Positions 1,694 to 35,399 of a stretch of 35,438 bases of DNA are shown in pieces. The position numbers were made by a program, and so were the translations under genes. The first letter of the stretch is position 1; every line of letters begins with the position of its first letter. Origin of the DNA: an uncultured bacterium (lineage in GTDB: Bacteria; Hydrothermota; Hydrothermia; UBA1063; CAJXJZ01). The notes beneath the pieces are model-generated. The model ran no database searches. It had not been told where the DNA came from and worked only from the letters and a program-made list of their open reading frames with translations. Location: contig CAJXJZ010000014.1 of assembly GCA_913055745.1 (NCBI GenBank), forward strand, positions 1 through 35,438, in the 5' to 3' direction.

Positions 1694-2908
1694 ATGTTTG
1701 ATGTAAAATATGGTTTAAACAAACTGCCTGATAAAAATAAAAAAGAGGTTCAACGATTCTTTTTAATGTCTTTAACCGGTAAGAAGGCAGAAAAATCACC
1801 TCGACTGAATGTAAGTTTTGTGCTTGATAAAAGCGGTTCAATGGATGGCACGCCTATTGAGAGCCTGAAGTCAGGGCTCAAACGTTCCTTGGATGTATTT
1901 ACTGAAAACGATAGGATAAGCATAGTTCTCTTTGATAGTATGGTTGAGACATTACTTGAAAATACAAGGCTCTATGGACCAGATAAAAAGAAGGTTAAGC
2001 GTCTTATAAATAACATTGATGCAATGGGTGGTACATGTATAGATGAAGGACTTGAGATAGGTTTAAAAGAAATACAAAAGGTTAAACTCCAAGACTATGT
2101 TAATTGGATAATACTACTTACTGATGGTAAGAATGATCACGGCTCTGATGAACACGCGTTGGAGGTAGCCAAGAATGCAAGAGAACTTGGTATTTCTATA
2201 TTCACCATAGGTTTTGGAAAGCATTGGAGCCCCACCTTGCTTGAAAAAATATCTGACATAACAAAGGGCGAGATGTATCATGTCCAAGACCCTAAGGAAC
2301 TTAAAGAAATTTTTACAGAAAAAGCCACTAAAATAAGAAAAACTGTTGCAAAAAATGTTGAAATTACCATAGATTTATACGAAGGTGTTAATTTTTCTGA
2401 GATCACACCTGCATATATTACAAAGCCACAGATTGTTCCCCTTGAACCTGTACTTGATGTTGACCAGTTTATAATTGAAGTGGGGGATATATATGAAGGG
2501 AAAACCAAGGATATTTTGTTTCAACTCTTTATGAAAGGAAATCAGAAGTACCTTTTTGATTTTAAAATCAGTTATTATGATACAGAGGGCCAAAGGCAAG
2601 AAATGCCATGGGAAAAGGGTGTTGTGCCGTCTTTGTATGAGGATCCAGATAAGGTAAGTGCCACAATAGACCGTCTGAGTGTGTATCTACAATCTGAAAT
2701 TGTGAATGATTTATTGGAAGGAGGCGCACCTGAGCAAGCACTTACTTTGCTTCAAACCATGCAGTTGACTGCTACTAAGTTAAATGATGATGAACTTAAA
2801 ACTATAATTGAGCAGAATGTTACTAAGGTCCAGGACGGGATAGAGCTCTCTGATGAAGACCTTATAAAGACTAAGATGTTTACAAAAACGGTGATAAAAG
2901 ATGACTAA
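1694..2908 (+). CDS. von Willebrand factor A domain protein
   Basis: A 404-residue protein with an N-terminal VWA domain (about residues 37-225). It has an intact MIDAS metal site: DKSGSM with D45, S47 and S49, the threonine in GGTCIDEG near 113, and LLTDGKNDHG near 148. The remaining half is beta-rich, then helical, as in stand-alone cytoplasmic VWA proteins of the YfbK/TerY type. No signal peptide or membrane segment is seen. VWA domains bind partner proteins through the metal. Here the partners are probably the FHA protein, phosphatase and kinase encoded directly downstream: the stop overlaps the FHA start by 8 bases. It is the first gene after a consensus promoter and has almost no leader. 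Confidence 0.9.
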   Translation: MFDVKYGLNKLPDKNKKEVQRFFLMSLTGKKAEKSPRLNVSFVLDKSGSMDGTPIESLKSGLKRSLDVFTENDRISIVLFDSMVETLLENTRLYGPDKKKVKRLINNIDAMGGTCIDEGLEIGLKEIQKVKLQDYVNWIILLTDGKNDHGSDEHALEVAKNARELGISIFTIGFGKHWSPTLLEKISDITKGEMYHVQDPKELKEIFTEKATKIRKTVAKNVEITIDLYEGVNFSEITPAYITKPQIVPLEPVLDVDQFIIEVGDIYEGKTKDILFQLFMKGNQKYLFDFKISYYDTEGQRQEMPWEKGVVPSLYEDPDKVSATIDRLSVYLQSEIVNDLLEGGAPEQALTLLQTMQLTATKLNDDELKTIIEQNVTKVQDGIELSDEDLIKTKMFTKTVIKDD

Positions 2909-3530
2909 AATATGTCCTATTTGTGGTTATAGAAATAGGGATAGCGCAGAGTACTGTGAGAGGTGCCTTTTTAATCTCTCAGATACAGATGATTTAAATC
3001 CAAAAGCCGAGAATGAAGAAGGAATAGAAGGCATGGAGGAAGGACTTGGTGTTTACTGTCCTAATGGGCACTGGAATCCACCAGGTGCCAAGTTTTGTCA
3101 AGTCTGTGGCGTTCCATTGGAAGATAAAGATACTCAAGAGGAACTACTATTACCACCAGAAGAATCCGAGGAAGAAGAAAAAGGACAGATAATGAAAATC
3201 TACAAACTCGTAAGTCATGATGCCGAATTTCTTGTAGAACTGTCGTTGTACAAAGGCAAGATAAAAGAAATGTTAATTGGAAGAAAGAGCGGGAAAAATA
3301 TACCTGATGTAGACCTTACTGGGCTTAAAGGTGCAGAAGTGGTTTCAAGAAGACATGCGAATCTTATATTGGACGGTAATGAAGGGGAGATATATGTTGT
3401 AGATCTTGGTTCAACTAATGGCACCTTTGTAAACGGTGAAAAATTAAAACCTGGAGAAAAAATAAAATTGAAAATAGGGGATGAGATATTATTTGGAAAA
3501 GCCCTTAGATTTGTGTTGGAGGAAGGTTAA
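2901..3530 (+). CDS. Double zinc-ribbon FHA-domain protein
   Basis: A 209-residue reader of phosphothreonine. There are two N-terminal zinc ribbons: C5/C8 with C19/C22, and C53/H57 with C66/C69, the second having His in place of one Cys. An acidic linker (about 74-95, rich in Glu) leads to a C-terminal FHA domain (about 98-209). Its phosphopeptide-binding residues are present: GR at 127-128, SRRH at 149-152 and STNGTFVNG at 171-179. The gene overlaps the VWA gene and is followed directly by the phosphatase, so it probably docks to threonines phosphorylated by the kinase of this operon. The first four residues (MTKI) and the ribbon match those of the kinase, which suggests module duplication. 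Confidence 0.9.
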   Translation: MTKICPICGYRNRDSAEYCERCLFNLSDTDDLNPKAENEEGIEGMEEGLGVYCPNGHWNPPGAKFCQVCGVPLEDKDTQEELLLPPEESEEEEKGQIMKIYKLVSHDAEFLVELSLYKGKIKEMLIGRKSGKNIPDVDLTGLKGAEVVSRRHANLILDGNEGEIYVVDLGSTNGTFVNGEKLKPGEKIKLKIGDEILFGKALRFVLEEG

Positions 3531-5003
3531 TTGAAAAGGAGAAAACTCTGTCCACATTGTGGGAGAGAAGTCCTAAAAAATGCTGTATTTTGTCCATATT
3601 GTGGATTTGACCTTAGCAAAACAGTTTGCCCAGAATGTTTGAAAAAAGTGGACTTATCCTTGGATATATGTCCCTATTGTGGAAGTCCTTTGAGAAAAGA
3701 TGTAATTATTCCCGTTCAGATTGAGAGTCTTTCTGACGAAAGGTATAAAATTATTGAATCAAAAGAGAACTACACAATTTTGAAAGAAAACGATATTACC
3801 TTAGAAAGATACAAACCCACAACCTTAGAGGATTTCTTCTACACTTCACTGGGAATATTCTATGATGTTATATATACTGATGACGAACATAAGGTACCAG
3901 TTCTTTCATTCACACATCCTGTAATGTCCAAAAATGATTACTGGGATATGTTGAAAGAAAAAGAACGCATACATCTTATTTTCAGTCTTCTTAATATGTT
4001 TCTTAAGCATCAAAAACTATATATTTCTTCTTCCCCTGTTCTCTTTGACGCTAATGGAAGGTTAATAGTAAATGTAAGCGAAACTGAAAAGGATGGATTT
4101 TTAAGTGCAATTGAGTGGCTTAAAGAGTTTATGCGTTCTTTAAATGTAAGTGATAATGCTGTGTTCAAAGATATTATTTTATCCAAGGCGTTTAATGAAG
4201 CTAAAAACATTGCTGAGCTTATATCTCTTTTTTATACAGCGTTTGGTACTTTTTTACATGTGGAAATAGAAAGTTTTGCTATAAGTTCACAGGGTCTTGT
4301 AAGGGGTCATAATGAAGATAATTATGCAGTGTTGGAGTATCATAAGCAAGGGTTTGATGGTACTGCCCCATATACCTTTAAAACAGGGTTGTTTATCCTC
4401 TCAGATGGCATGGGAGGGCACATAGGTGGAGAAGAGGCAAGCAACCTAATAGTTAAAATCGTTTCAGAAGAGATCATATCTTATTTCATAAAGGATCATC
4501 CTTTCTTTGATATTGCACCTCTCATAAACAGGGCTATTTCAAGAGCAAATGCGATAGTTTTTGAGAAGAATAGGTATGCAACGAGTGAAAGAGAAAAGAT
4601 GGGCGCCACCTTAGCAGGTGTACTTTTAGTAGAGAATGAACTCTGGTACTTTAATCTTGGTGATTCTCCTATCATGCTCTTTGATGGTAAAAGTTTGCTC
4701 AAGGTCTCAGTTGATGATGTTATGTTAAGCAATAAAAAGGCTCTTACCCAAGCCGTAGGAGTTATCCCTTCTGACAAGTTAATACCACATATCTCAAAAT
4801 ACGACATTCAAAATGAGATTAAATTTCTATTGTGTAGCGATGGGCTTACCGATCTTGTGAAGTTTGGTGAAATAGAGGATGCGTTAAGGGAACATTCACC
4901 AAAGGATGCAGCTTCTTTGCTACATTCGCTTGCACTTGAAAGAGGTGGTATTGACAATATTACGATAATAATTGGAAAAATAAGGAGGAATAAACTTTTC
5001 TAA
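3531..5003 (+). CDS. Zinc-ribbon PP2C-family protein phosphatase with extra middle domain
   Basis: A 490-residue protein. Two zinc ribbons (C7/C10 with C21/C24; C33/C36 with C47/C50) precede an atypical segment of about 180 residues. The C-terminal PP2C (PPM) Ser/Thr phosphatase domain (about 247-490) has its metal-binding motifs: RGHNEDN (258-264), SDGMGG (291-296), the GATLAG/NLGDSP core, LLCSDGLTD, and terminal GGIDNIT. It should reverse phosphorylation by the downstream kinase. The start is a TTG directly after the FHA stop, with GGAGG and AAGG sites upstream. The next ATG would remove both ribbons, so TTG is preferred. The middle segment has a kinase-like pattern (KHQKLYISSSPVLFDANG near 159-176) and may be a pseudokinase. 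Confidence 0.9.
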   Translation: MKRRKLCPHCGREVLKNAVFCPYCGFDLSKTVCPECLKKVDLSLDICPYCGSPLRKDVIIPVQIESLSDERYKIIESKENYTILKENDITLERYKPTTLEDFFYTSLGIFYDVIYTDDEHKVPVLSFTHPVMSKNDYWDMLKEKERIHLIFSLLNMFLKHQKLYISSSPVLFDANGRLIVNVSETEKDGFLSAIEWLKEFMRSLNVSDNAVFKDIILSKAFNEAKNIAELISLFYTAFGTFLHVEIESFAISSQGLVRGHNEDNYAVLEYHKQGFDGTAPYTFKTGLFILSDGMGGHIGGEEASNLIVKIVSEEIISYFIKDHPFFDIAPLINRAISRANAIVFEKNRYATSEREKMGATLAGVLLVENELWYFNLGDSPIMLFDGKSLLKVSVDDVMLSNKKALTQAVGVIPSDKLIPHISKYDIQNEIKFLLCSDGLTDLVKFGEIEDALREHSPKDAASLLHSLALERGGIDNITIIIGKIRRNKLF

Positions 5004-5013
5004 AGAAAACGTT

Positions 5014-7101
5014 ATGACAAAGATATGTCCTGTTTGCGGAGCCGAGAATCCAGATAATGCCAAGTTCTGTGGTAAATGTGGTACTCCACTTGAAGAGGGC
5101 ACAATTGTATGCAAGGTATGTGGAAGCATAAATCCTGCTGGCAGTGAGTTTTGTAGGGTTTGTGGAAGTCCTCTTAAGCCTATTACAAGACTAATTAAAG
5201 GGAGATATAGGTTAATCAAGATGATAGGCGAGGGGGGATTTGGAAGGACATACATTGCCACTGATGAACTTCTTTTTGGACGTAAGGTTGTGTTAAAAGA
5301 GTTTACGGAAAAAAGGAAAAATTCTGATGTTATTATGAAAGAGGGTATGGTACTTGCCAAACTCAATCACCCTCTTATTCCTAAGATCCATGGCTTTTTT
5401 GAGGATAGAGGGCGTATATACCTTGCTCAGGATTATATAGAGGGTAAAACCCTACGTGTGGTACTTGAAACAAAAGGGAAACAGAGTGAAGATTTTGTTC
5501 TGAAGGTATTACATGATGTGCTTGATACGATAGCGTATTTACAAAATCAGGACCCGCCCCTTGTACACAGGGATATAAAGCCAGAAAATCTTATAATTTC
5601 TAATGGTAAGACCTATCTTGTAGACTTTGGTGCAGTGAAGGAACTATCAAAGGATGCACTAAAGCACAAAACTATCATTTATACAAAGGGTTATGTTTCT
5701 CCAGAACAGAGGAAGGGAGAGCCAACACTCTCTTCAGACTTATATTCTCTTGGCGTTGTGGCCATAGAACTCCTTACTGGTATGCATCCTGAAAAATTTG
5801 TAGATAAAGATACAAAGGCTATAAACTACAATGTTATCTCTAATTTTAGAACAGAACTCGTGGAATTTTTGGTTAAAATGACAAACAAAGACCAAAGTCT
5901 TAGATATCATACGGCAGAGGAGGCATTGAAAGACCTTGAAATGGTAACTAAAATGGCGACTTTAAGAAAATTTATTCAATCTATGGGTATTTCTTCTAAC
6001 TTTAATGAAGAGCAAAAAAATGCGATCATAAAGTCTGCTGAAGAACTGGGTATTCCTCGGGATAAAGCAAAGATTATAACCCGTGAACTTCAATCTAAAT
6101 CTCAAAATGCAGAGACAACAAATGCTCATTTGTCATATAAAAAGGGTACAACAACACAGAGTAAAACTTTTAGAAAGGTGTTACATGGACTTATATCAGA
6201 ACACGACCAAATTCCTGTAAAACTCGTGGGAACCCTCAAATCAATGAATAATAAGGTGGCTAAGATAGAGTTTTCCGTAGATGGGAGTTTGCTCGCTGTG
6301 GGTAGTTGGGGTGGAATAGTAAAGGTATTCAGCACAAAAACATGGCAAAGGCTTGTATCACTCAAGGCATCTAAGGGCGTATCCCCTCATGTGTTGGATG
6401 TTAAAATCTCTCCTAATGCACGCAAACTCGCATCAGCAAGTGCAAATGGAGAGATACGCGTATGGGAAGTCGGCACATGGCTTTTGGCTAAATTCATACA
6501 GGGCTCAGATTTTGAGGCGAATACAGTGGTTTTTTCCCAAGATGAACAGTTCGTTTTTGCTGGTTTTGCAGATGGTAGCATTAAGGCATGGGATACCACT
6601 ACATTCAATAAAATTTTTGAAGTTTCTGACCTTAATGGGTGGGTTTTAAAACTTGAAACCGTATCAAGATACTTGTTTGCAGGAACTAATAGTGGTGAGA
6701 TTTACATTTGGGATATTGCACTCCGCAAACTCAAAAAGGTCTTAAAAGGCCACGATGGTTGGATAAACTATATAACCTTTAATGTAATAAATGGTGAGAT
6801 TATTTCTACGACAGAAGATGGGCAGATAGTTATATGGAGTGCAAGGAATCTTAAGCCTATTTGGAAGGGGCAATTAGCATCAACAAATATTACTGCTATA
6901 ACTTCAACACCTGACAAAAGTATGTTGATTTTTGCAACAGATGAGGATGTACATGTTTTTGATTTAGAGAATAGGCAGGAGGTGTCAAAGTTCTCCGCTC
7001 AACAAAGGGTAACGGCACTCGGTTATGCACCCAAAAGTTTGTACTTTATGAGTGGGGATGAAAGGGGAACATTAAAACTCTGGAAATTCAAGAAGGATTA
7101 A
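5014..7101 (+). CDS. Zinc-ribbon Ser/Thr protein kinase with WD40 propeller
   Basis: A 695-residue cytoplasmic Hanks-type kinase. Two zinc ribbons come first (C5/C8 with C19/C22; C33/C36 with C47/C50). The kinase domain (about 65-315) has all catalytic residues: the glycine loop GEGGFG (72-77), Lys95, Glu110, HRD (185-187) with Asn192, DFG (204-206) and SPE (229-231). A linker (about 315-400) leads to a C-terminal WD40 propeller. Seven strand-d signatures can be counted (VKVF, IRVW, IKAW, IYIW, IVIW, VHVF, LKLW), enough for one closed ring. No transmembrane segment is present, unlike PASTA-type PknB. The gene lies 10 bases after the phosphatase with a weak ribosome site. Its 3' end overlaps the convergent glycosyltransferase by 14 bases. 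Confidence 0.94.
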   Translation: MTKICPVCGAENPDNAKFCGKCGTPLEEGTIVCKVCGSINPAGSEFCRVCGSPLKPITRLIKGRYRLIKMIGEGGFGRTYIATDELLFGRKVVLKEFTEKRKNSDVIMKEGMVLAKLNHPLIPKIHGFFEDRGRIYLAQDYIEGKTLRVVLETKGKQSEDFVLKVLHDVLDTIAYLQNQDPPLVHRDIKPENLIISNGKTYLVDFGAVKELSKDALKHKTIIYTKGYVSPEQRKGEPTLSSDLYSLGVVAIELLTGMHPEKFVDKDTKAINYNVISNFRTELVEFLVKMTNKDQSLRYHTAEEALKDLEMVTKMATLRKFIQSMGISSNFNEEQKNAIIKSAEELGIPRDKAKIITRELQSKSQNAETTNAHLSYKKGTTTQSKTFRKVLHGLISEHDQIPVKLVGTLKSMNNKVAKIEFSVDGSLLAVGSWGGIVKVFSTKTWQRLVSLKASKGVSPHVLDVKISPNARKLASASANGEIRVWEVGTWLLAKFIQGSDFEANTVVFSQDEQFVFAGFADGSIKAWDTTTFNKIFEVSDLNGWVLKLETVSRYLFAGTNSGEIYIWDIALRKLKKVLKGHDGWINYITFNVINGEIISTTEDGQIVIWSARNLKPIWKGQLASTNITAITSTPDKSMLIFATDEDVHVFDLENRQEVSKFSAQQRVTALGYAPKSLYFMSGDERGTLKLWKFKKD

Positions 7102-7927: not shown

Positions 7928-8878
7928 CTATTTTTCTTCCTCTTTCTTTCTTGATTCAAGCCAGAGCAATTCTTTCCAGTTTTTCTCTATTTCGTCCTGG
8001 ATCTCTTTGATAAGTTCAGGCCTTTTCATTATGTGCTTAAATCTTCCCTGATGCTTCAAGAACTCTTCTACAGGGACAAACTTCCTGGGCTTATAGTTTA
8101 CCTTCCAATAGCCATCTTCATATTCGTAAAGTGGCCAGAACCTCGTTTCTACAGCGAGTTTTGTAAGTTCTATACTCATATTTTCGGGTGTGCCCCATCC
8201 AGGAGGACAGGTGGATAAAACCGCTACGAATGCAGGGCCATCCACCTCTAAACCCTTCTGAAATTTCTTAACAAGGTCATTCCAGAAAGCAGGTGAACCC
8301 TGTGCTGCATACCTTGGCCTATGCATAGCAATAATCTTTGTAAGGTCTTTTCTTGGCTGCTGTTTACCAGGAATTACAGTCCCTGCTGGAGATGTTGTAG
8401 TATGGGCATGTAATGGTGTAGCACTTGACCTTTGAATACCAGTGTTCATATAGCCTTCATTATCATAGAGGACATAGAGAAAGTCATGTCCCCTTTCAAT
8501 AGCACCAGAAAGTGCTTGAAGTCCAATATCGTAGGTCCCACCGTCTCCACCGATAGCAACAAATTTTACAGGTTTCTTTGCATTTTTAATCTTACCCCTC
8601 TTCAGAAGGGCCTTGTATGCCCTTTCTATGCCACTTATTGTTGCTCCAGCATTTTCAAAGGCGTTATGCACCCATGGAACAGGCCATGCACTGTATGGCA
8701 TAATGGTGGTTACAACCTCCATACAACCTGTAGCATTTGCTATAACAAGGTCATAATCTGCACCTGCTGCAAGTAGCATTCTTATTATTGAAGGAAAAGC
8801 ACAGCCTGCACAGGCTCTATGCCCGGGCGCAAATCCCTGTGACCTTTCTGCAAGTTGTTTTAAATTGAGTCTTTGCAT
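7928..8878 (-). CDS. porB: Pyruvate/2-oxoacid:ferredoxin oxidoreductase, beta subunit
   Basis: A 316-residue catalytic subunit that binds thiamine diphosphate. The TPP/Mg signature GDGGTYDIGLQA is followed by YDNEGYMNTG. Cysteines for the proximal [4Fe-4S] cluster are visible: C23 and C26 (CAGC), C52 (TGCMEVV) and the Cys of STCPPGW. It works with the alpha, gamma and delta subunits encoded just upstream to oxidise a 2-oxoacid with CoA and pass electrons to ferredoxin, or the reverse in carboxylation. The start has TAAGGAGG upstream, 10 bases after porA. Pyruvate is the likely substrate from the porGDAB gene order and subunit sizes as in Thermotoga, but 2-oxoisovalerate enzymes are close relatives. 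Confidence 0.93.
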   Translation of the reverse strand: MQRLNLKQLAERSQGFAPGHRACAGCAFPSIIRMLLAAGADYDLVIANATGCMEVVTTIMPYSAWPVPWVHNAFENAGATISGIERAYKALLKRGKIKNAKKPVKFVAIGGDGGTYDIGLQALSGAIERGHDFLYVLYDNEGYMNTGIQRSSATPLHAHTTTSPAGTVIPGKQQPRKDLTKIIAMHRPRYAAQGSPAFWNDLVKKFQKGLEVDGPAFVAVLSTCPPGWGTPENMSIELTKLAVETRFWPLYEYEDGYWKVNYKPRKFVPVEEFLKHQGRFKHIMKRPELIKEIQDEIEKNWKELLWLESRKKEEEK

Positions 8879-8888
8879 TCTATCCTCC

Positions 8889-10076
8889 TTATTCCCTCAC
8901 TCCAATAAAGGAGTACAAAGGTAATTCTTTACCATCTTTTAGGTCTTTTATCATACTTAAAACAGTATTCGCCTGCTCATCATCAAAGTCTCTTCCACCG
9001 AGTCCGAAAACAAAGCCTGTTATCTTAGGCCTTTTTTCTGCATCGTAGAGCGCTGCCTTTACCTCCTGCAGCATTGGACCACCCAAAGTAGAATGTGTCT
9101 CCGCCCTATCCATAACACCAACTGCCTTTATTCCACTAAGGTATTTTTTAACCTCTTCATATGGGAATGGACGGGTGATTCTAAGTCTTAATAGACCTAC
9201 CTTTTCACCTTTTTCCCGCCATTCATCAATGATTTCCTTCAGTGTACTTGCAGCCGAACTCAAGGCCACCACAGCATACTCTGCATCATCCAGCCTGTAT
9301 GGTTCCACAAAGGCAGGAATATCAGTTCCAAAAGTGTCGTTGTATTTCTTAGTAATTTCCAAAATGACTTTCTTGGCGTTAAACATTGCCTCCATTTGCT
9401 GTCTTTTATGCTCAAAATAGTAATCTTGCAGGTCTAATGGTCCAACAGTCACAGGATTTTCAAAATCAAATAGATTATACAACGGCTTTCTTTCTCCAAT
9501 AAATTTCTTAACTTCTTCATCGGGTAGTGTATTAACAACTTCCATCTCATGACTTATGATAAATCCATCAAGCATCACCATTGCGGGTAGATTAACAGTT
9601 TCTGCAATTTTTATAGCCATAATAACAGAGTGATATGCCTCATTGGCATTTTCTGTGTAAATCTGTATCCAACCTGAATCTCTTGAGCCCATGGTATCTG
9701 AATGATCACCATGTATATTGATCGGTGCAGAAAGGGTCCTATTGGCTACAGCCATAACAATGGGTAATCTTAAGCCTGCAGCAATATATTGAATTTCATG
9801 CATCAGTGCAAGGCCCTGGGATGAGGTGCCTGTCATAACCCTTGCGCCTCCAACAGAAGCACCAACGCAAGCGCTCAGCGCAGAATGTTCAGACTCTACT
9901 GGAATAAACTCCGTATCCACTTCTCCATTCGCTACATACTTGGAAAAAATCTGCACTATCTCAGTTGCAGGTGTAATAGGATATGCAGCCACAACATCGG
10001 GATTTATCTGTTTCATGGCATAGGCATAAGCCTCGTTCCCTGTTAAAGCCATTTTTATAAATGTTCCCTTCTCCAT
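8889..10076 (-). CDS. porA: Pyruvate/2-oxoacid:ferredoxin oxidoreductase, alpha subunit
   Basis: A 395-residue alpha subunit (domains I and II of the PFOR fold). Diagnostic motifs are AAYPITPATEIVQ near 34-46, PVESEHSALSACVGAS near 58-73, and TGTSSQGLALMHE. The C-terminal domain carries FGLGGRD. It helps to bind the TPP cofactor across the alpha-beta interface and the substrate. Its ATG overlaps the porD stop by one base (TAATG) with GGAGGAGG upstream, so translation is coupled. Confidence 0.93.
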   Translation of the reverse strand: MEKGTFIKMALTGNEAYAYAMKQINPDVVAAYPITPATEIVQIFSKYVANGEVDTEFIPVESEHSALSACVGASVGGARVMTGTSSQGLALMHEIQYIAAGLRLPIVMAVANRTLSAPINIHGDHSDTMGSRDSGWIQIYTENANEAYHSVIMAIKIAETVNLPAMVMLDGFIISHEMEVVNTLPDEEVKKFIGERKPLYNLFDFENPVTVGPLDLQDYYFEHKRQQMEAMFNAKKVILEITKKYNDTFGTDIPAFVEPYRLDDAEYAVVALSSAASTLKEIIDEWREKGEKVGLLRLRITRPFPYEEVKKYLSGIKAVGVMDRAETHSTLGGPMLQEVKAALYDAEKRPKITGFVFGLGGRDFDDEQANTVLSMIKDLKDGKELPLYSFIGVRE

Positions 10077-10363
10077 TATACCTCCTCCTTCTCCATCGTA
10101 ATGGCCTTAATACTTGGAGGACAGACCTCTGCACATATCCCGCAACCCTTACAGTGATCATAGTCAACGCCTTTTATTTTCCCGTTCTCTGTCAGTATAG
10201 AAGAATCTGGACAATAAAGCCAGCATAGATGACAGTGAGTACATTTGTCAAAATTAATTACTGGCCTTTCGGTCCTCCAATCGCCAGTTTTAAACTCTGG
10301 TGAATTGGGAGCACCTGGGATAATAGCACCTTCTGGTAATTCCTTCCAGGATTTTAGTTTCAT
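10076..10363 (-). CDS. porD: 2-oxoacid:ferredoxin oxidoreductase, delta (ferredoxin) subunit
   Basis: A 95-residue subunit with two [4Fe-4S] ferredoxin motifs: CTHCHLCWLYCP and CKGCGICAEVCP. Before them lies the usual N-terminal extension with TGDWRTERPV, typical of PorD. It passes electrons from the beta subunit to external ferredoxin. It overlaps the gamma-subunit gene upstream by an ATGA junction. Compare the delta subunit of the second operon (11641-12744), which is almost four times longer. Confidence 0.94.
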   Translation of the reverse strand: MKLKSWKELPEGAIIPGAPNSPEFKTGDWRTERPVINFDKCTHCHLCWLYCPDSSILTENGKIKGVDYDHCKGCGICAEVCPPSIKAITMEKEEV

Positions 10364-10932
10364 GACTCTTTTACCTCCTCATAGGCCTTTTTTATAGCCT
10401 CCATATTTTTCTTAACAATATCTTCCCTATACTTCATCTTAAGCCTTGCTTCTACGCTCTTTAAAAACTCATCAAATGGAATGGCACCTGTTGCCTTAAC
10501 AAATGCTCCAAGCATTGGGGTATTGGGAAGGTTCCTTCCGATAATAGATTCTGAAATAGCAGTTGCGTTGACAGCAAAGAGTTTGTTTTTGATATTGAAT
10601 TTTTCTTTGATCTGGTTTGGCTCAAGTCCTGAGTTTATTATAAAGATTGTGTCTTCTCTTATCCCAAGCCAAACCTTTTCTGTATTAAGAAGTGTTGGGT
10701 CAAGTATCATAATAACATCAGGGCTCTTGATGCCATAATGAATTCTTATAGGCTCATCCGCTATCCTATTGTATGCTGTAACAGGTGCGCCTCTACGTTC
10801 AGGTCCATATTCAGGGAATGCTTGAATATACTTGCCTTGTTGCATCATGGCTTCTCCAAGTAAAAGGGCTCCTGTTTTGGCGCCCATTCCTCCTCTTCCA
10901 TGCCATCTAATCTCCAGATATTTTTTACCCAT
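10360..10932 (-). CDS. porG: 2-oxoacid:ferredoxin oxidoreductase, gamma subunit
   Basis: A 190-residue gamma subunit (PFOR domain III). The N-terminus WHGRGGMGAKTGALLLGEA and PEYGPERRGAPVTAYNRI are the family signatures, with roles in CoA handling. It is the first gene of the leftward operon in the order gamma-delta-alpha-beta, as in Thermotoga and archaeal pyruvate oxidoreductases. The ATG has AAGGAG nine bases upstream, and its own promoter lies 26 bases upstream. The paralogue across the divergent promoter region (11078-11638) shares most of these motifs. Confidence 0.93.
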   Translation of the reverse strand: MGKKYLEIRWHGRGGMGAKTGALLLGEAMMQQGKYIQAFPEYGPERRGAPVTAYNRIADEPIRIHYGIKSPDVIMILDPTLLNTEKVWLGIREDTIFIINSGLEPNQIKEKFNIKNKLFAVNATAISESIIGRNLPNTPMLGAFVKATGAIPFDEFLKSVEARLKMKYREDIVKKNMEAIKKAYEEVKES

Positions 10933-10957
10933 TTGTAACTCCTTTTAGGTTTTTATA

Positions 10958-10986
10958 ATTATAACGCATAAATGGCGTTCCTGCAA
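10958..10986 (-). promoter_or_regulatory. Promoter of porGDAB
   Basis: On the minus strand TTGCAG (10981-10986), a 17-base spacer and a perfect TATAAT (10958-10963) precede the porG start. The predicted leader is about 20 bases and includes the AAGGAG site. Confidence 0.75.
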
Positions 10987-11016
10987 ATTAAATGGTATAT
11001 GTTTCAAGGCTTTTTC

Positions 11017-11048
11017 TTGACCATACTTACTTTATGTTTTAACATAAA
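11017..11048 (+). promoter_or_regulatory. Promoter and palindromic operator of the second por operon
   Basis: TTGACC (11017-11022), a 17-base spacer and TAACAT (11040-11045) form a promoter. A perfect inverted repeat TTTATGTT-TT-AACATAAA (11031-11048) covers the -10 box. It has the size and symmetry of a dimeric repressor site. It lies in the divergent region shared with porGDAB. Confidence 0.65.
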
Positions 11049-11077
11049 TACATTGGAATGCTTTGAAGGAGGAGAAG

Positions 11078-11638
11078 ATGATTGAAATAAGGATGCATGG
11101 AAGAGGAGGACAGGGTACGGTAGTGGCGTCAAAAGTCCTTGCTGACGCAGCATTTAAGGATGGCAAGTATAGCCAATCCTTTCCACAGTATGGTGTGGAA
11201 AGGAGAGGAGCGCCAGTAACCGCCTTTACGAGGATTGCGGACAGTGAGGGCGAGCTTATTGTAAGGTCTTTTATATACGAGCCTGACCATGTAGTGGTGC
11301 TTGATCCAACTCTTTTGTCCACTCAAAATATCCTTGAAGGGCTAAAGAAGGGAGGATGGATAGTAATAAATACACCAGAAGACCCATCCAGTTTTGATAT
11401 ACCAGAGGATTTCAAGGTTGCCACAGTTGATGCAGCAAGTATAGCGATAAAATGGAGGTTGGGTTCAAAAACACAACCCATTGTAAACACGGCCATTTTA
11501 GGCGCCTTTTCGAAAGTAACTGGTATTGTTTCCATGGAAGCGCTTCAAAAGGCCATAATGGAGAATGCTCCAGTAAAGAAGGAAGAGAATGTAAATGCAG
11601 CAAAAGAGGCATTTGAAAGTGTGAAAATAAGGAGTTGA
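11078..11638 (+). CDS. 2-oxoacid:ferredoxin oxidoreductase, gamma subunit (second set)
   Basis: A 186-residue gamma subunit with MIEIRMHGRGGQGTVVASKV and PQYGVERRGAPVTAFTRI. An in-frame TTG lies five codons earlier, but the ATG at 11078 is preceded by GGAGGAG at the right distance and is preferred. It is the first gene of a rightward operon (gamma, long delta, alpha, beta). It resembles the gamma subunit of the divergent operon but keeps the GQGT form of the glycine motif, where the other has GMGA. The two enzymes are therefore old paralogues, not a recent duplication. Substrate not determined. Confidence 0.92.
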   Translation: MIEIRMHGRGGQGTVVASKVLADAAFKDGKYSQSFPQYGVERRGAPVTAFTRIADSEGELIVRSFIYEPDHVVVLDPTLLSTQNILEGLKKGGWIVINTPEDPSSFDIPEDFKVATVDAASIAIKWRLGSKTQPIVNTAILGAFSKVTGIVSMEALQKAIMENAPVKKEENVNAAKEAFESVKIRS

Positions 11639-11640
11639 TT

Positions 11641-12744
11641 ATGGACAAAGGACCTATTGAATTCACTGATAAAGTAGTAAAAATATCATCTGAAAAGGAC
11701 CTCCCCGAGGCCCCTATATCACAGGGATTTACCCTGACCAACAAGACAGGCTCATGGAGGAATGTAAGGCCTGTCCTAACAGAACAGAATGCTCCATGCC
11801 AGAATGCATGCCCTCTAAAAGTATGGGTTCAGTCGTTTATAGACCTTCTAACCCGTGGGATGCCAGAAAAGGCCGCATTAGAGATACTCAAAAATAATCC
11901 ATTTCCTCTTCTTACACGTAAACTATGTAAGGCTAAATGCGAGATTGCGTGTAATAGAAGAAAGTATGATGCGCCTATTTCTATTAGAGAACTTGAGGGA
12001 TTCGTAGGAAATATAGGTTATGAAAAAGGCATATTCCCCGAAAGAGGAGAGGTATTGAACAAGAAGGTTGCGGTTTTGGGAAATTCTGAATCTGTAATGA
12101 GTGCTGCCTATTTTTCCTTTTTGTATGGGATGGATGTTGACCTTTATACAACAAATCCATTTGAGGGACTTGAACTTACAAAAGAGGAGATAGAGAGGGA
12201 AAAACGAAGGCTACAGGATATGGGGATAAAGATAATTTCAAAGGAAGCCCCTTTAGATGAACTTTTAAACGATTACGATGCTGTGATTACCGATACCAAA
12301 GAAGTAGAGAATAAACTCACCTTCCAGACAGACAATGAAAAACTCTATGTGGTAAAGCCAGAGAGAAAGGATTTCTCACGAGACCTTTATTTTGGTAAAA
12401 GGGCTGCAAAATCTGTTTATCAATATTTAAGTGGTGAAGGTATCCAGAAAGACCCACCTCCACCTCGCTCTGTTTCATTTAATAACATAGTATTGGATTA
12501 CTTTGAGCCAGCAGAGAGGATAGATAAGATCAATACAATGGAAGATGCTATAAAAGAAGGAAATAGATGCTTTTCCTGTGGACACTGTAATTCGTGTGGA
12601 AACTGTTATGTATTCTGTCCAGACGCGGCAATCTCCTGGGAAAACAATTTGCCAGTTATAAATTACGACTACTGTAAGGGCTGTGGTATATGTGTAAATG
12701 AATGTCCAAGAAATGTACTTGTACTTGTACCTGAAAGGGGGTAG
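11641..12744 (+). CDS. Delta subunit fused to a collapsed GltD-like flavoprotein domain
   Basis: This 367-residue protein replaces a simple PorD. Residues 1-45 match the PorD extension (TGSWRNVRPV). Residues 50-125 match the N-terminal Fe-S domain of GltD/dihydropyrimidine dehydrogenase (C53, C57, C96, C100, C104; SIRELEGF). The FAD domain follows, but the GxGxxG loop has become VLGNSES (145-151), the NADPH domain is missing, and only the end motif FGKRAAKSVYQYL (251-263) remains. The C-terminus has RCFSCGHC plus two [4Fe-4S] motifs (C316-C326 and C345-C355). Full-length relatives couple NAD(P)H and ferredoxin. This one probably no longer binds flavin and acts as a scaffolded electron-transfer subunit. 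The ATG at 11641 has AAGGAG upstream, two bases after the gamma stop. Confidence 0.85.
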   Translation: MDKGPIEFTDKVVKISSEKDLPEAPISQGFTLTNKTGSWRNVRPVLTEQNAPCQNACPLKVWVQSFIDLLTRGMPEKAALEILKNNPFPLLTRKLCKAKCEIACNRRKYDAPISIRELEGFVGNIGYEKGIFPERGEVLNKKVAVLGNSESVMSAAYFSFLYGMDVDLYTTNPFEGLELTKEEIEREKRRLQDMGIKIISKEAPLDELLNDYDAVITDTKEVENKLTFQTDNEKLYVVKPERKDFSRDLYFGKRAAKSVYQYLSGEGIQKDPPPPRSVSFNNIVLDYFEPAERIDKINTMEDAIKEGNRCFSCGHCNSCGNCYVFCPDAAISWENNLPVINYDYCKGCGICVNECPRNVLVLVPERG

Positions 12745-12746
12745 AA

Positions 12747-13904
12747 ATGAGTTTAAAAAAGGTTTTAACAGGAAATCATGCTGTATCTTATGGGGCAACC
12801 TCAGCAAGGGTTCAGGTCATATCTGCATACCCTATAACGCCCCAGACAACGATTGTAGAACTTCTCTCCGAGATTGTTGCAGAGGGAAAACTTGACGCCA
12901 TTTTTGTTAATGTGGAATCAGAACATTCTGCGATGAGTGCATGCATAGGCGCATCTGCTGCAGGCGCAAGGGCCTTCACGGCAACCAGTGCACAGGGCCT
13001 TGCTTTAATGCATGAAATGCTCCACTGGGCTGCGGGCGCGAGATTGCCTATAGTAATGGCCAATGTAAACAGAGCCATGGCTCCCCCATGGTCCATATGG
13101 ACAGATCAAAACGACTCATTGGCACAGAGGGATACAGGATGGATGCAATTCTATACAGAGTCAAACCAGGAGGCTTATGACTATGTGATATTAGCGTACA
13201 AAGTGGCAGAACAGGTGCTCCTTCCTACAATGCTCGTACTTGATGCCTTTGTGTTATCCCATACATCAGAACCTGTTGAAATATACGATCAGGAAAAAGT
13301 GGATGAGTTTTTACCCCCTTATGAGCCCAAATTTGTCATAGAGCCTGGCAAACCTTTAGGTTATGGTGCACTTGCTAAGCCCGATACATATATGGAGTTT
13401 AGGTATAAAATGCAAAGGTCCATGGAACGTGCTGTAAAAGTGATAGAAGAAGAGACAAAGAAGTTTAACGACATGTTCAATAGAAACTATGGCCTTGTAG
13501 AGCCTTATATGATGGATGATGCAGACTATGTGATAGTCACTTCTGGTGCAATGACTTCCACGGCAAGGGCTGCTGTTCATGAATTGAGAGAAGAAGGGAA
13601 TAAGGTAGGGCTTTTGAAAATGAAAACCTTTAGGCCTTTCCCATTTGAGAAGGTTAGAGAATATCTATCTGGTAGAAAGAAAGTGGCTGTATTGGATAGG
13701 AACATCTCATTTGGCCATCACGGTATATTCTATGAAGAAATAAAGTCAGCCATGTACCAAGTAGAGCCAAAGGTTCCGATACATGGATACATTCTTGGCC
13801 TTGGGGGAAGAGATGTTACCAAAAAAGATATAAAGGAAATTTATGAAGACCTTCAAAAACGAGAAGAACTCTCAGAGATTGTATGGAAGGGGGTAAAGTT
13901 ATGA
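12747..13904 (+). CDS. 2-oxoacid:ferredoxin oxidoreductase, alpha subunit (second set)
   Basis: A 385-residue alpha subunit with ISAYPITPQTTIVELLSE, NVESEHSAMSACIGASAAG, TATSAQGLALMHE, NRAMAPPWSIWTDQND and the C-terminal GLGGRD. The NRAMAPPW region differs from the leftward paralogue (NRTLSAPINI). It belongs to the type I associate with pyruvate synthases of autotrophs such as Aquificales and some deltaproteobacteria, so this set could run as pyruvate synthase. This is inference. The start lies two bases after the delta-subunit stop, with AGGGGG upstream. Confidence 0.9.
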   Translation: MSLKKVLTGNHAVSYGATSARVQVISAYPITPQTTIVELLSEIVAEGKLDAIFVNVESEHSAMSACIGASAAGARAFTATSAQGLALMHEMLHWAAGARLPIVMANVNRAMAPPWSIWTDQNDSLAQRDTGWMQFYTESNQEAYDYVILAYKVAEQVLLPTMLVLDAFVLSHTSEPVEIYDQEKVDEFLPPYEPKFVIEPGKPLGYGALAKPDTYMEFRYKMQRSMERAVKVIEEETKKFNDMFNRNYGLVEPYMMDDADYVIVTSGAMTSTARAAVHELREEGNKVGLLKMKTFRPFPFEKVREYLSGRKKVAVLDRNISFGHHGIFYEEIKSAMYQVEPKVPIHGYILGLGGRDVTKKDIKEIYEDLQKREELSEIVWKGVKL

Positions 13905-14839
13905 TTATGAGAAACTGGACCGTTCCAATGGAGGAAAACCTCCTTAAGGGGCATGTTGCATGTCAGGGATGTCTTGGCGCACTCTCCATGAGACTTATGT
14001 TAAAGGGACTTGGAACTAATGTTGCCGTCGTTATTCCTGCATGTTGTTGGACGATAATTTCTGGAGATGTGCTCTACCATGCGTTGAAAGTTCCTGTATT
14101 TCACACAGCCTTTGAAACAGCGGCTATAACCGCAACAGGTGTAAAAGCAGGCCTTACAATGAGAGGTAAGGGTGATACAACTGTCCTCGCATGGGCAGGG
14201 GATGGAGGAACATTTGATATAGGACTTCAGGCTATATCGGGCGCTGCAGAGAGGAACGAAGACATTATTTATGCTGTTTATGACAATGAGGCATATATGA
14301 ACACTGGGATTCAGCGTTCAAGTGCTACCCCTTATGGCGCATGGACAACCACGACGCCAGCAAAAAGACCCGAAGATAAACCTAAGAAGGATATAGTAGA
14401 GATCCTTGCAGCCCATAGAGTGCCTTATGTTGCGACTGTTACCCCTGCATATCCTGAAGACTTTTTAAGAAAGGTGGAAAAAGCAAAGAAAATAAAGGGA
14501 TTTAGATTCTTCCACATTCTATCTCCATGCCCTCCTGGATGGAAGATGCCATCAGATTATTCAGTGCAGGCAGCAAGGCTTGCTGTACAGACAAAGGTTT
14601 TCCCATTGCTTGAGATAGAAAATGGAGAAAAATACACCATAAACTATGAGTATCCAAAGGATGTGCCTTTAGAAGAATATTTAAAACTTCAAGGAAGATT
14701 TAAACACCTCTTTAAGACACCCGAGAAGATAGAGCACATCAAAGAACAGGTAAAAAAGAGATGGGATTACCTTCTTATGAGACATAAACTCACACATGGC
14801 ACAACAGATAACATAGTAAGAAAGGTATTCTACAAGTAG
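13901..14839 (+). CDS. 2-oxoacid:ferredoxin oxidoreductase, beta subunit (second set)
   Basis: A 312-residue TPP-binding beta subunit. The TPP motif GDGGTFDIGLQA and YDNEAYMNTG are present. Cluster cysteines are C21 and C24 (CQGC), C48 or C49 (ACCW) and the Cys of SPCPPGW. The chosen ATG (13901) overlaps the alpha-subunit stop as ATGA and follows AAGGGGG. A GTG-type start six codons earlier is less likely. It completes the second gamma-delta-alpha-beta set. Its C-terminus extends past the RFKHL region with a basic tail, similar to the leftward paralogue. Confidence 0.91.
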   Translation: MIMRNWTVPMEENLLKGHVACQGCLGALSMRLMLKGLGTNVAVVIPACCWTIISGDVLYHALKVPVFHTAFETAAITATGVKAGLTMRGKGDTTVLAWAGDGGTFDIGLQAISGAAERNEDIIYAVYDNEAYMNTGIQRSSATPYGAWTTTTPAKRPEDKPKKDIVEILAAHRVPYVATVTPAYPEDFLRKVEKAKKIKGFRFFHILSPCPPGWKMPSDYSVQAARLAVQTKVFPLLEIENGEKYTINYEYPKDVPLEEYLKLQGRFKHLFKTPEKIEHIKEQVKKRWDYLLMRHKLTHGTTDNIVRKVFYK

Positions 14840-32134: not shown

Positions 32135-32162
32135 ATTATATCGCAGGGTGCGTGGATTTCAA
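32135..32162 (-). promoter_or_regulatory. Promoter giving a leaderless ricT mRNA
   Basis: On the minus strand TTGAAA (32157-32162), 16 bases and a perfect TATAAT (32135-32140) lie 6 bases before the ATG. It separates the ricT operon from the riboswitch operon upstream. Confidence 0.7.
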
Positions 32163-32557
32163 TGTCCTTGTTTGCCATATTTTGTAAGATATGCTATCAC
32201 GAACTTCTTTCTGTGAGGTAATAGGCATTCAGAGCAATCCCAATATCCCCATTCGTTTCTCTTGCCATAGATTGAATTTATCTTGCAACGTCCATACTCC
32301 TTTTTCTCTTCGTCATAGTATTCATAGTCGTAATAAGGACATGCACAAAAATAACATACAAGTTCTTCATCTTCAAGATTATGGCACTTCTCATTCTTCG
32401 CAAAAAGTGGACAGAAATCAGGATGATGTTTTTTTAGGTTGGCATAAGTGAAGTAATCTGCAATTTCCTCAGGGGTCTTAAGACCCCTAAGGTTTACAAT
32501 CTCATCCCGTTTTCTTTTAAAATCTAAATACCATTTTTTTATTGGGTTTTCATCCAT
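32159..32557 (-). CDS. Cysteine-rich small domain (PF04071-like) metal-binding protein
   Basis: A 132-residue protein. The C-terminal part has FCPLFAKNEKCHNL, LVCYFCACPYYDY, a Cys in GRCK, and YWDCSECLLPHRKKFV. This order (C, CH, CxxCxCPxY, C, DCSxCxxPH) is that of the cysteine-rich small domain that Pfam describes as a probable metal-binding domain, often met near or fused to cobalamin-synthesis proteins. Its place as third gene behind a cobalamin riboswitch, BtuB and a BtuG-like lipoprotein fits this. No signal peptide, so cytoplasmic. It overlaps the lipoprotein gene by 19 bases. The actual ligand is unknown. Confidence 0.85.
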   Translation of the reverse strand: MDENPIKKWYLDFKRKRDEIVNLRGLKTPEEIADYFTYANLKKHHPDFCPLFAKNEKCHNLEDEELVCYFCACPYYDYEYYDEEKKEYGRCKINSIYGKRNEWGYWDCSECLLPHRKKFVIAYLTKYGKQGH

Positions 32558-33573
32558 ATACCAAGTCCCTGAATGCCTTTTCGCTCCCCCATGTATACAG
32601 AATCGTAAACCTGAACCCTCTCTGGGTCAAATAGAAGGAGATAATTTGGACCTGAAGCATTAAACCTTGTTATAAAACCTATGCCATTCATATCTATAGC
32701 AATCTGGGATGTACCTTCTCCTGTATTTTGCCATATTACTTCTCTGTCTTGGGTAGATACCTTGCACACTCCACCATACCAGTCAGTAAGGTAGAGGGCA
32801 TTGTTGTAATAATACATATAACCAGGACTTTGGCCAACATTTATGGTATCAACAAAACGAAGGCTGTCGCCTATCTCATAAAGATAGAGTTTTCCAAAAG
32901 TATTCGTATAATCACCGGTTGATAATGCATAGAGTGTATCGGATACAATAGCAACGCTTTGTGTGTTGACCCCGGCATATACAGAATCAGATACATAAAG
33001 ACCCGCGGGCCCTTCCTCTACTGTATACACATAAGCATTGTTGTAAGAGTAATTAGAGAGGTCGTATCCTGTGCATGCAACATAAATTCTGCCATCTTTC
33101 TCTGTCATCCCTTCAGGTCCTTTTCCAACCTTGACTGAATCTAAGAACCTGAGCGTGTATAAGTCCAATTTATAGACCATATCATTTCCCGTGCATGATA
33201 CGAACAGACTATTTTCCTTCTTTATTACTGCCCATGGGTTTGAGCCGTTTGGAAACACGGTGTATTTTACCATGGTATCTTTCAAAAGCTCTATTTTCAT
33301 AAGTGATGGGACGCCTCCAAAACCAGAGTTCACTATATATGCATAGTCCCCATATATGAGTATATCGTTCGGCACAGCACCTGTTGTGTCCACATCAATT
33401 ATGGTATTGTTTGTCTCTGGCATGTAGTAGGAGTATGTTTCAGATAGATTGTTCAATACCACCACAACCTCTGTGCTTTCTGGGAAGTTTTCCTCCTCCT
33501 GGTTTTTTGTACATGCGCCCAAGAGGATCATCAAGGTAGTGAGCGCTATGCCTATTATCTTACCACTTCTCAT
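32539..33573 (-). CDS. Beta-propeller lipoprotein, BtuG-like B12-capture candidate
   Basis: A 344-residue lipoprotein. The signal peptide ends in the lipobox LLGAC with Cys21 for lipidation, followed by KNQEEEN. The rest consists of repeated YncE/SMP-type propeller blades (DILIYGDYAYIVNS, NSLFVSCTGNDMVYKLDL, GRIYVACTGYD, DTLYALSTGD, NALYLTDWYGG). About seven blades fit the length. In Bacteroides the lipoprotein BtuG is a seven-bladed propeller that sits on BtuB and binds B12 very tightly. Same order, size and riboswitch here make an equivalent role likely. GGAGGT precedes the ATG, 3 bases after the btuB stop. Confidence 0.82.
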   Translation of the reverse strand: MRSGKIIGIALTTLMILLGACTKNQEEENFPESTEVVVVLNNLSETYSYYMPETNNTIIDVDTTGAVPNDILIYGDYAYIVNSGFGGVPSLMKIELLKDTMVKYTVFPNGSNPWAVIKKENSLFVSCTGNDMVYKLDLYTLRFLDSVKVGKGPEGMTEKDGRIYVACTGYDLSNYSYNNAYVYTVEEGPAGLYVSDSVYAGVNTQSVAIVSDTLYALSTGDYTNTFGKLYLYEIGDSLRFVDTINVGQSPGYMYYYNNALYLTDWYGGVCKVSTQDREVIWQNTGEGTSQIAIDMNGIGFITRFNASGPNYLLLFDPERVQVYDSVYMGERKGIQGLGIWMKTQ

Positions 33574-33576
33574 ATC

Positions 33577-35166
33577 TTACCTCCATTCAAGTTTTATGTT
33601 TGTATAAAATACTCTCCCTGTTTGAGGATAGCCGGCTATCCATTCTATATATTCATCTAAAAGATTATGAACTCCCATTTCTACAACAAAATGTCCAATC
33701 TCCCTTTTATAGTTTACATTAAAAAGTTCCATACAAGGGAGCATCTTAATGCTATGAGGTCTTTTTTCCCTTCTTCCGGTGAATGATACACCTATTTTTA
33801 AATTGTTATAACTTAAATAAAAACCTTCCATTACATGTGGATAGTAAAGGACATGGTCAAAAAATGATAAAGTGCCTGAAAAACCCGCCTTTACTATGCC
33901 CTGGTGTGTTATCTTAAATTCAATGCCCTTTATATGTCGTATGCCAGTATTATAAGGCGTGTATTTTTGAGATACTATACACCATTGAATCATGTTTTTT
34001 ATACTTTTATCAAAATATGAAAGATGAATGATGCTATTTTCTGAAATATACTTAAACCCTGCCTCATACTGCCTTATATATTCTGGTAAAAGGTTGGGAT
34101 TACCCTTTGCAAAGGCATCTTCTGGCCAATAAAGGTCAAAAAATGAGGGAAGGTGCACACCCTTTGTATAGTTTATATAAAACACGCTACCCTTTAGTTT
34201 GTAAGATGCACCTAAAAAATAACTTGAATAGGCATTGTTAAATTCCTGAGGATAGAAGACAGAACCGTTTAAAACAAGTTGTAAGTCTTTATAATAGAGT
34301 TTTTTGCTGCCTATTAAAGATAAAGTGTTCCTTATTCTTTTTGATGATTTTGTTGAAGAGATGTACTCTGAAGATACTGAAAAACGGAATAGGCCGAGTC
34401 CCACATCCACATAATTGTAAAAACTTCTATGAATATCAACTTCTCTTCCAGTTTTATAAATAAGTTGTGATAAATTGCCTTTTATGAAAGAGTAAATATG
34501 CTTGCCTCTAAATAGAGAAAAAGAATAACCAGAGAAAAACTCTTTTTTATCACCATTTATATCTGTTCCCATGGGTCCTTGTATCTTTGCATGTCTTAAA
34601 GCCAATATGAAGGATGCATTATCATTATCAAGAAGAAGAAAAAACTTTTTAAATCCATCCTGCTTAGAGTTTTTCTCTGAAAAGGATGAAAAAAGTTGAA
34701 CTTTCCATAAATGAGAACTTATATAGGGTTCAAGGATGCCGCAAGAATTTATATTAAAACCTGCATTTTGCCTATGAGCACTTTTTATAAATATCCCCCC
34801 TGCTGCACCATTTATACTGCCGTATGAGGATAATGGATGCTTTATAATAATGCCATTTATACCCAATGATGTTGGTAATAAGGAAAGGTCAGCATAATCG
34901 TTTTGTACTGTTTTTAAGGGAATACCATTCAATTGAATATCAATATCCTGCGTTCTTGTACCCCTTAATCCCACAGAGGAGAGATTGCCATACTCTTTGA
35001 ACAATAAAGATGTTGTTTCGTTTAATAACCAGTATCTATCTCCTGAAAATGCAACTTTTTCAGAAAAGGATGGATATGAAAACCTTAATTCATCCGCATA
35101 AGGAAAATTGGCATAAACATAAACAGTATCTTGTATAAATACACTAAAAAGCCATAATAGATACAT
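33577..35166 (-). CDS. btuB: TonB-dependent receptor, BtuB-like
   Basis: A 529-residue outer-membrane receptor. The first 12 or so residues form a short signal sequence. DTVYVYANF directly after it resembles the E. coli BtuB TonB box DTLVVTANR. The plug contains SSVGLRGTRTQDIDIQLNGI and AAGGIFIKS. The barrel has many Tyr/Phe-rich strands, such as YSSYFLGASYKLKGSVFYIN and NLLPEYIRQYEAGFKYISEN, and ends in VFYTNIKLEW. It is short for the family (E. coli BtuB about 600). The start at 35166 is preferred, with GGAGGAG next to it; an in-frame start at 35208 lies inside the riboswitch. TonB, ExbBD and BtuFCD are not in the window. Confidence 0.92.
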   Translation of the reverse strand: MYLLWLFSVFIQDTVYVYANFPYADELRFSYPSFSEKVAFSGDRYWLLNETTSLLFKEYGNLSSVGLRGTRTQDIDIQLNGIPLKTVQNDYADLSLLPTSLGINGIIIKHPLSSYGSINGAAGGIFIKSAHRQNAGFNINSCGILEPYISSHLWKVQLFSSFSEKNSKQDGFKKFFLLLDNDNASFILALRHAKIQGPMGTDINGDKKEFFSGYSFSLFRGKHIYSFIKGNLSQLIYKTGREVDIHRSFYNYVDVGLGLFRFSVSSEYISSTKSSKRIRNTLSLIGSKKLYYKDLQLVLNGSVFYPQEFNNAYSSYFLGASYKLKGSVFYINYTKGVHLPSFFDLYWPEDAFAKGNPNLLPEYIRQYEAGFKYISENSIIHLSYFDKSIKNMIQWCIVSQKYTPYNTGIRHIKGIEFKITHQGIVKAGFSGTLSFFDHVLYYPHVMEGFYLSYNNLKIGVSFTGRREKRPHSIKMLPCMELFNVNYKREIGHFVVEMGVHNLLDEYIEWIAGYPQTGRVFYTNIKLEWR

Positions 35167-35204
35167 CTCTCCTCCTCCCCAACCCCCGGGGGATGGGATT
35201 TTTT
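35167..35204 (-). promoter_or_regulatory. Riboswitch expression platform and btuB ribosome site
   Basis: Between the aptamer and the ATG the minus strand holds a G/C hairpin (35177-35197, CCC-A-T-CCCCC facing GGGGG-T-T-GGG with one mismatch) that abuts GGAGGAG at 35168-35174. There is no T-run, so control of translation start is more likely than termination. Confidence 0.6.
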
Positions 35205-35362
35205 GCACAGATTCGGGTCTCCCGGCTTGTGGCGCTTCCTTCGCCTTCCCAGCAGGAAAGCCCTAAGACCCTCTCTGCCAGTGGCATGTTGAAGGAAGTT
35301 TCTGTGCCACTTACGGTTGCGGGGGCAGCCAGGGATTTGCACCCTGTTCCCCTCATCCGTGC
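35205..35362 (-). ncRNA. Cobalamin riboswitch
   Basis: The minus strand shows a full aptamer. The P1 stem GCACGGAT (35355-35362) pairs with ATCTGTGC (35205-35212). GGGGAACAGGGTGCAAATCC and GGCTGCCCCCGCAACCGTAAG form the conserved P3-P6 core. The B12 box region TGCCACTGGCAGAGAGGG (around 35270-35287) and GCCGGGAGACC complete the core. It should bind a cobalamin and repress the three downstream genes. The promoter places the transcript start one base before P1. Confidence 0.96.
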
Positions 35363-35369
35363 GATGTAT

Positions 35370-35399
35370 ATTATAAGGGTGATATATAAGACAAACCAA
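35370..35399 (-). promoter_or_regulatory. Promoter of the cobalamin operon
   Basis: TATAAT (35370-35375, minus strand) with TTGGTT (35394-35399) 18 bases upstream. The predicted start near 35363 coincides with the first base of the riboswitch P1 stem. Nothing else is recognised to the end of the window. Confidence 0.68.

Follow-up and report, generated by a model that had tools for sequence, protein, structure and literature searches.

The riboswitch-linked operon described here is very probably a divergent BtuBG-type vitamin B12 capture system in a bacterium of WOR-3 (Caldifarciminota), and its best reading is that of a known kind of system in a new phylum. BtuG is the surface protein by which gut Bacteroides capture vitamin B12. 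In Bacteroides thetaiotaomicron, BtuG1, BtuG2 and BtuG3 occur with BtuB (Wexler 2018 PMC6143338; Abellon-Ruiz 2023 PMC10404256), and the BtuBG pairing has been stated to be exclusive to Bacteroidetes (PMC6143338; PMC10404256), which is not borne out by the WOR-3 data. In the open-access literature searched on BtuG, and on WOR-3 together with BtuB, no earlier report of the pairing in WOR-3 came up, subscription papers and preprints lying mostly outside this search. The window, that is, the whole stretch of DNA analysed (35,438 nucleotides), is an entire contig, and the features of the operon within it are listed in Table 1.

Table 1. Positions and supporting evidence of the operon features in the window.
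Feature	Position	Strand	Evidence
Cobalamin riboswitch aptamer RF00174	35195..35408	-	cmscan 86.8 bits, model positions 1-189 (full)
Shine-Dalgarno-like GGAGGAGGAG ahead of receptor ATG	35169..35180	-	Read from sequence
BtuB-type TonB-dependent receptor, ~530 aa	33577..35166	-	Pfam PF00593, NCBIfam BtuB models, profile search of PDB
TonB box-like DTVYVYA, residues 13-19	35110..35130	-	Read from translation
BtuG-family beta-propeller lipoprotein (predicted), 344 aa	32539..33573	-	AF2 model, Foldseek, profile
Lipobox LGAC (Cys21)	33511..33522	-	Cys invariant, 16/16 aligned homologues
Cys-rich small protein, PF04071-like	32159..32557	-	19-nt overlap with propeller gene; sub-threshold Pfam

The initial annotation had placed a promoter and a full cobalamin aptamer ahead of the receptor gene. 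The aptamer is confirmed, as it covers the complete model and exceeds the RF00174 gathering score of 31.5 bits, and it is the single cobalamin riboswitch found in the host genome. The promoter could not be confirmed: promoter-like sites are no commoner in the region than chance predicts (13 against 13.4 expected), none of them lies at the riboswitch, and the contig stops 30 nt upstream of the aptamer. Translation of the receptor probably starts at the ATG at 35166 after GGAGGAGGAG, which is likelier than the GTG at 35208 because the latter falls within the riboswitch. The tight spacing between GGAGGAGGAG and the riboswitch suggests that control of the receptor may be translational. We also considered and rejected a hairpin that would regulate the ribosome-binding site, the local fold being no more stable than those of shuffled sequences. 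Only 3 nt separate the receptor and propeller genes and the propeller and Cys-rich genes overlap, so that the three genes are operon-like.

Judged by its sequence, the first gene product is a TonB-dependent receptor of the B12 type that has a plug, a barrel and a TonB box, and is a predicted B12 transporter. The barrel matches TonB_dep_Rec (Pfam E 5.7e-18), BtuB models rank first and third among the NCBIfam matches, under their equivalog cut-offs, and the plug region aligns to BtuB2, while the Pfam Plug model gave no match. DTVYVYA resembles the TonB box of E. coli BtuB and a similar stretch stands at the same position in the receptors of relatives, so that the TonB receptor with a BtuB-like TonB box proposed initially is upheld. 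A profile built from 17 receptors of the phylum and run against PDB sequences ranked BtuB2 (5e-44) and BtuB3 (3e-43) of B. thetaiotaomicron highest, followed by E. coli BtuB (8.5e-33) and BtuB1 (3.3e-22), and reached the first non-BtuB protein at 2.7e-16.

The second gene product, described at the outset as a lipobox beta-propeller protein, retains that description. All 16 aligned sequences share its lipobox Cys, as expected of a lipoprotein, and the AlphaFold2 model (alignment of 7 sequences; pLDDT 89.1, pTM 0.84) has 28 predicted strands, which can be assigned by hand to seven four-stranded blades, a number compatible with BtuG. In sequence the propeller resembles BtuG more than it does other propellers. 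When a profile of 16 homologues was run against all PDB sequences, the top six were all BtuG1- or BtuG3-type Bacteroides BtuG (3.3e-10, for BtuG1, to 8.5e-7), and 3DSM, which is treated in the literature as a BtuG structure, was also among the matches. A Foldseek search of the PDB with the propeller model returned BtuG at ranks 1 to 16 (E 2e-12 to 9e-11; TM 0.70-0.74 by query length over ~345 aligned columns). Moreover, hhalign against BtuG2/BtuG3 gave a probability of 95.9 over 224 collinear columns that begin at the lipobox region, and, because this alignment stays collinear from the lipobox Cys up to and including blade 5, the independent version of the capture strategy that had been envisaged as an alternative is disfavoured. 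Finally, the window propeller alone, a query with no element directing it toward B12 loci, was compared by tblastn with 72,556 plasmid records, and its best match was a locus of Prevotella sp. oral taxon 299 (L162) in which a riboswitch is followed by a BtuB-type receptor, a DUF5074 propeller nearest BtuG1 (1e-24), BtuF and BtuC. The likeness to BtuG thus emerges from profile search, structure search, collinear alignment and tblastn alike, and membership of the BtuG family is supported by sequence, fold and context, outside the reach of the DUF5074 model. On the propeller, conservation is higher in the loops of the DA/BC (top) face than in the loops of the opposite (bottom) face (p 3.6e-5), perhaps partly for structural reasons; the ligand loops of BtuG2, 236-249 and 266-274 (PMC10404256), correspond by inspection to the BC and DA loops.

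The propellers may reach the cell surface in more than one way. Those of other families lack the lipobox and end in a FlgD_ig / Por_Secre_tail-type sorting sequence; the type IX-type tail is clear in G137 and weak in G014, and inspection by eye shows comparable tails in G038, G028 and G030. These tails suggest that such propellers may be displayed on the surface by another route, and they fit surface display. For the lipidated type, the export signal LES of Bacteroidota lipoproteins has the consensus C-x-K-(D/E)2 (PMC5080379). A Lys at position +3, judged by this Bacteroidota consensus, is present in 12 of 16 propeller homologues and in 9 of 18 lipoproteins of one relative, and there is no clear enrichment of the export signal in the propellers over the other lipoproteins. 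Separately, a gene for a protein of ~410-430 aa, which has a DGPG-x-DLAVFEN motif as well as a type IX-type sorting tail, follows the receptor gene in the distant relatives G137, G040, G067, G136 and G103 (L140 3918-5198, L141 4858-6156, L144 3947-5173, L145 4782-6026, L146 4354-5610) and is possibly a further surface part of B12 uptake. Similar to these are proteins of ~360-380 aa with a [WF]-[YF]-GQ-x-x-YP motif, whose genes come next to follow that of the receptor in G014, G039 and G009 (L082 2199-3284, L096 2461-3546, L081 2623-3768).

We predict that the WOR-3 pair likely functions like BtuBG, with the propeller as a lid on the receptor. The closest competitor, which we consider unlikely, is that the propeller binds B12 as a separate scavenger or reservoir, like BtuH/BtuJ-type proteins, and forms no lid on BtuB. 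The loci of the strongest homologues speak for a lid, since there the propeller adjoins btuB in a BtuG-like order, and the receptor is nearest to those Bacteroides BtuBs that are partnered by BtuG. Receptor and propeller distances also correlate (r 0.90, a value that none of 2000 permutations reached), though common descent alone could be the source. A separate scavenger would agree with the sorting-tailed propellers of some relatives, which lack the lipobox, and with a fusion model of receptor and propeller, read through one TAA, in which the receptor was poorly modelled and the domains were not placed against each other (pTM 0.47). It would further agree with the behaviour of the EL8-type receptor motif I-x-W...[YW]-x-P-x-N, which was considered as a hand-off signature and rejected. 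In our own grouping, 28 of the 30 propeller-linked receptors carry this motif, as do 8 of 12 without such a link (for G009, counted among the 12, a propeller is encoded at another place in the genome), and the Prevotella receptor lacks it; present with and without a linked propeller and absent from the Prevotella receptor, the motif is not diagnostic.

More improbable still is that the propeller is a generic YVTN/YncE-type lipoprotein with another job, such as a periplasmic scaffold or structural role, which belongs to the B12 operon by chance. Seven-bladed propellers are common, the NCBIfam match of this one is weak and generic, and none of the Pfam families matches it, including DUF5074 (PF16819), which recognises the Prevotella BtuG but serves for detection and is no criterion of function. 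Propellers other than BtuG also match the fold (E ~1e-10 to 1e-9, starting at 2.5e-10), and the margin by which BtuG leads in this model-based comparison is real, if not large, at roughly a hundredfold in E-value. Nevertheless, BtuG outranks every other propeller by sequence profile as well as by structure, the alignment with BtuG2/BtuG3 is collinear, and the linkage to riboswitch and btuB is kept across many families. Cobalamin riboswitch matches occur in 116 of the 147 genomes of the phylum and propeller-profile matches at E 0.001 in 90, many of these weak or generic; counted from coordinates, 35 of the 147 have a propeller match that follows a same-strand riboswitch within 5 kb. Seen from the strong propeller homologues, 15 of 16 have a riboswitch within 5 kb upstream on the same strand, the sole exception lying on a 4.7-kb contig truncated within the receptor gene. 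Outside the order, 32 riboswitch loci were examined, of which 19 carry a propeller match; the remaining 13 have none nearby, several of them being cut by contig ends. The gene order of the operon is kept in relatives, and the arrangement is therefore not due to chance. In G010 and G020, by eye, btuF- and btuC-like genes follow btuB in place of the propeller. The order is swapped to riboswitch, propeller and receptor in family f9 (L137-L151, families f9 and f3, for example L077 972-3547 and L099 1246-3809), whose propeller has a signal peptide and no lipobox. In family f20 (G050, G060 and G056; L076 4030-7013, L150 1472-4618, L100 3858-6848), the riboswitch-linked propeller is followed by genes that look like those for a ribonucleotide reductase of the anaerobic type and the corresponding activase.

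WOR-3 is a little-known candidate phylum, mainly without cultured members. The expectation that the host lies outside the Bacteroidota proved correct: the named relatives in an alignment of order-level homologues are metagenome-assembled genomes (MAGs) of WOR-3 and Candidatus Hydrothermota, both currently placed by NCBI in Caldifarciminota. The host MAG is ~95% complete, and genes for RicT, PASTA and MBL-fold proteins lie downstream of the operon here as in three other genomes of the genus (G001-G003), so that the operon is the lineage's own and not a stray Bacteroidota contig. A recent horizontal transfer from Bacteroidota, or a contaminating contig in the MAG, is thus very improbable, for although the homologues with solved structures are all from Bacteroidota, MAG contamination is 0.76%, the downstream genes are shared within the genus, identity to the Prevotella BtuG is ~29% in the best segment, and the system is widely spread within the phylum. 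A scan of viral contigs gave no match. Elsewhere, the window carries a tRNA gene (321-393, +; Rfam), a eukaryote-like signalling cluster of VWA, FHA, PP2C phosphatase and Ser/Thr kinase genes, the kinase with WD40 repeats (1694-7101, +), and two separate gene sets for 2-oxoacid:ferredoxin oxidoreductases near each other on opposite strands (7928-14839).

The gene content of the host fits B12 scavenging. Encoded in the genome are NrdJ (746 bits), an AdoCbl-dependent ribonucleotide reductase of class II, as well as QueG and a BtuC-BtuD pair (G000:C31:56-1736, L156), and CbiC was not found in it, which as a single marker argues thinly against de novo corrin synthesis. BtuF was not found in the ~95% complete MAG, nor was an adenosyltransferase of the PduO type, the type searched for; the missing btuF is perhaps an assembly gap, because BtuD lies at a contig end. 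The neighbours of the BtuCD genes look like components of a hydrogenase-type complex. As a BtuBG-type system, the operon would be expressed when low cobalamin relieves the riboswitch, as in the known riboswitch family, and the lipobox protein would be lipidated and set on the outer-membrane surface. By homology, its seven-bladed propeller would bind corrinoid with the DA/BC-loop face and lid the BtuB-type receptor, through which the corrinoid would enter in a TonB box-dependent manner. BtuCD, encoded elsewhere, would deliver it to the cytoplasm for use by class II ribonucleotide reductase and QueG.

The third gene encodes the Cys-rich small-domain protein of the initial annotation, which we retain as PF04071-like at 24.6 bits, below the cut-off of 27. 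Its homologues lie 3' of the propeller in all eight same-genus and same-order relatives (8/8), and blastp against riboswitch loci from other families found none. A CblZ role was considered for this protein and found no support in the literature searched.

Compared with BtuG/BtuB of B. thetaiotaomicron, the WOR-3 system is alike in its cobalamin riboswitch, adjacent BtuB, lipobox and seven-bladed propeller, in having these BtuG proteins as the best profile and structure matches, and in its conserved ligand-side loops. It differs in belonging to another phylum, in its low sequence identity, in a propeller to which DUF5074 is blind, in a receptor of ~530 aa against ~700, in an operon without btuF and in being known here from sequence and model. 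The Prevotella locus shares the riboswitch-BtuB-BtuG order, but includes btuF and btuC in the operon and has a BtuG that matches DUF5074. E. coli BtuB-BtuFCD likewise has a TonB-box receptor of BtuB type, and BtuCD is present in the WOR-3 genome; E. coli has no BtuG, and its simpler btuB-btuF-btuC layout is that of other WOR-3 families (G010, G020).

A broader proposal, which we make tentatively and regard as somewhat doubtful, is that lid-assisted B12 uptake is an old trait of wider FCB-like lineages and not a gut invention of the Bacteroidota, with the lid anchored in some WOR-3 families by a type IX-type tail instead of a lipid. Should the reading as a BtuBG-type system be true, surface B12 capture would be older and broader than gut competition, and the divergent proteins could serve the study of how B12 is handed from lid to receptor. 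The named WOR-3/Hydrothermota relatives are uncultured MAGs, and these relatives amount to a natural experiment that sets two lid anchors, lipid and sorting tail, side by side.
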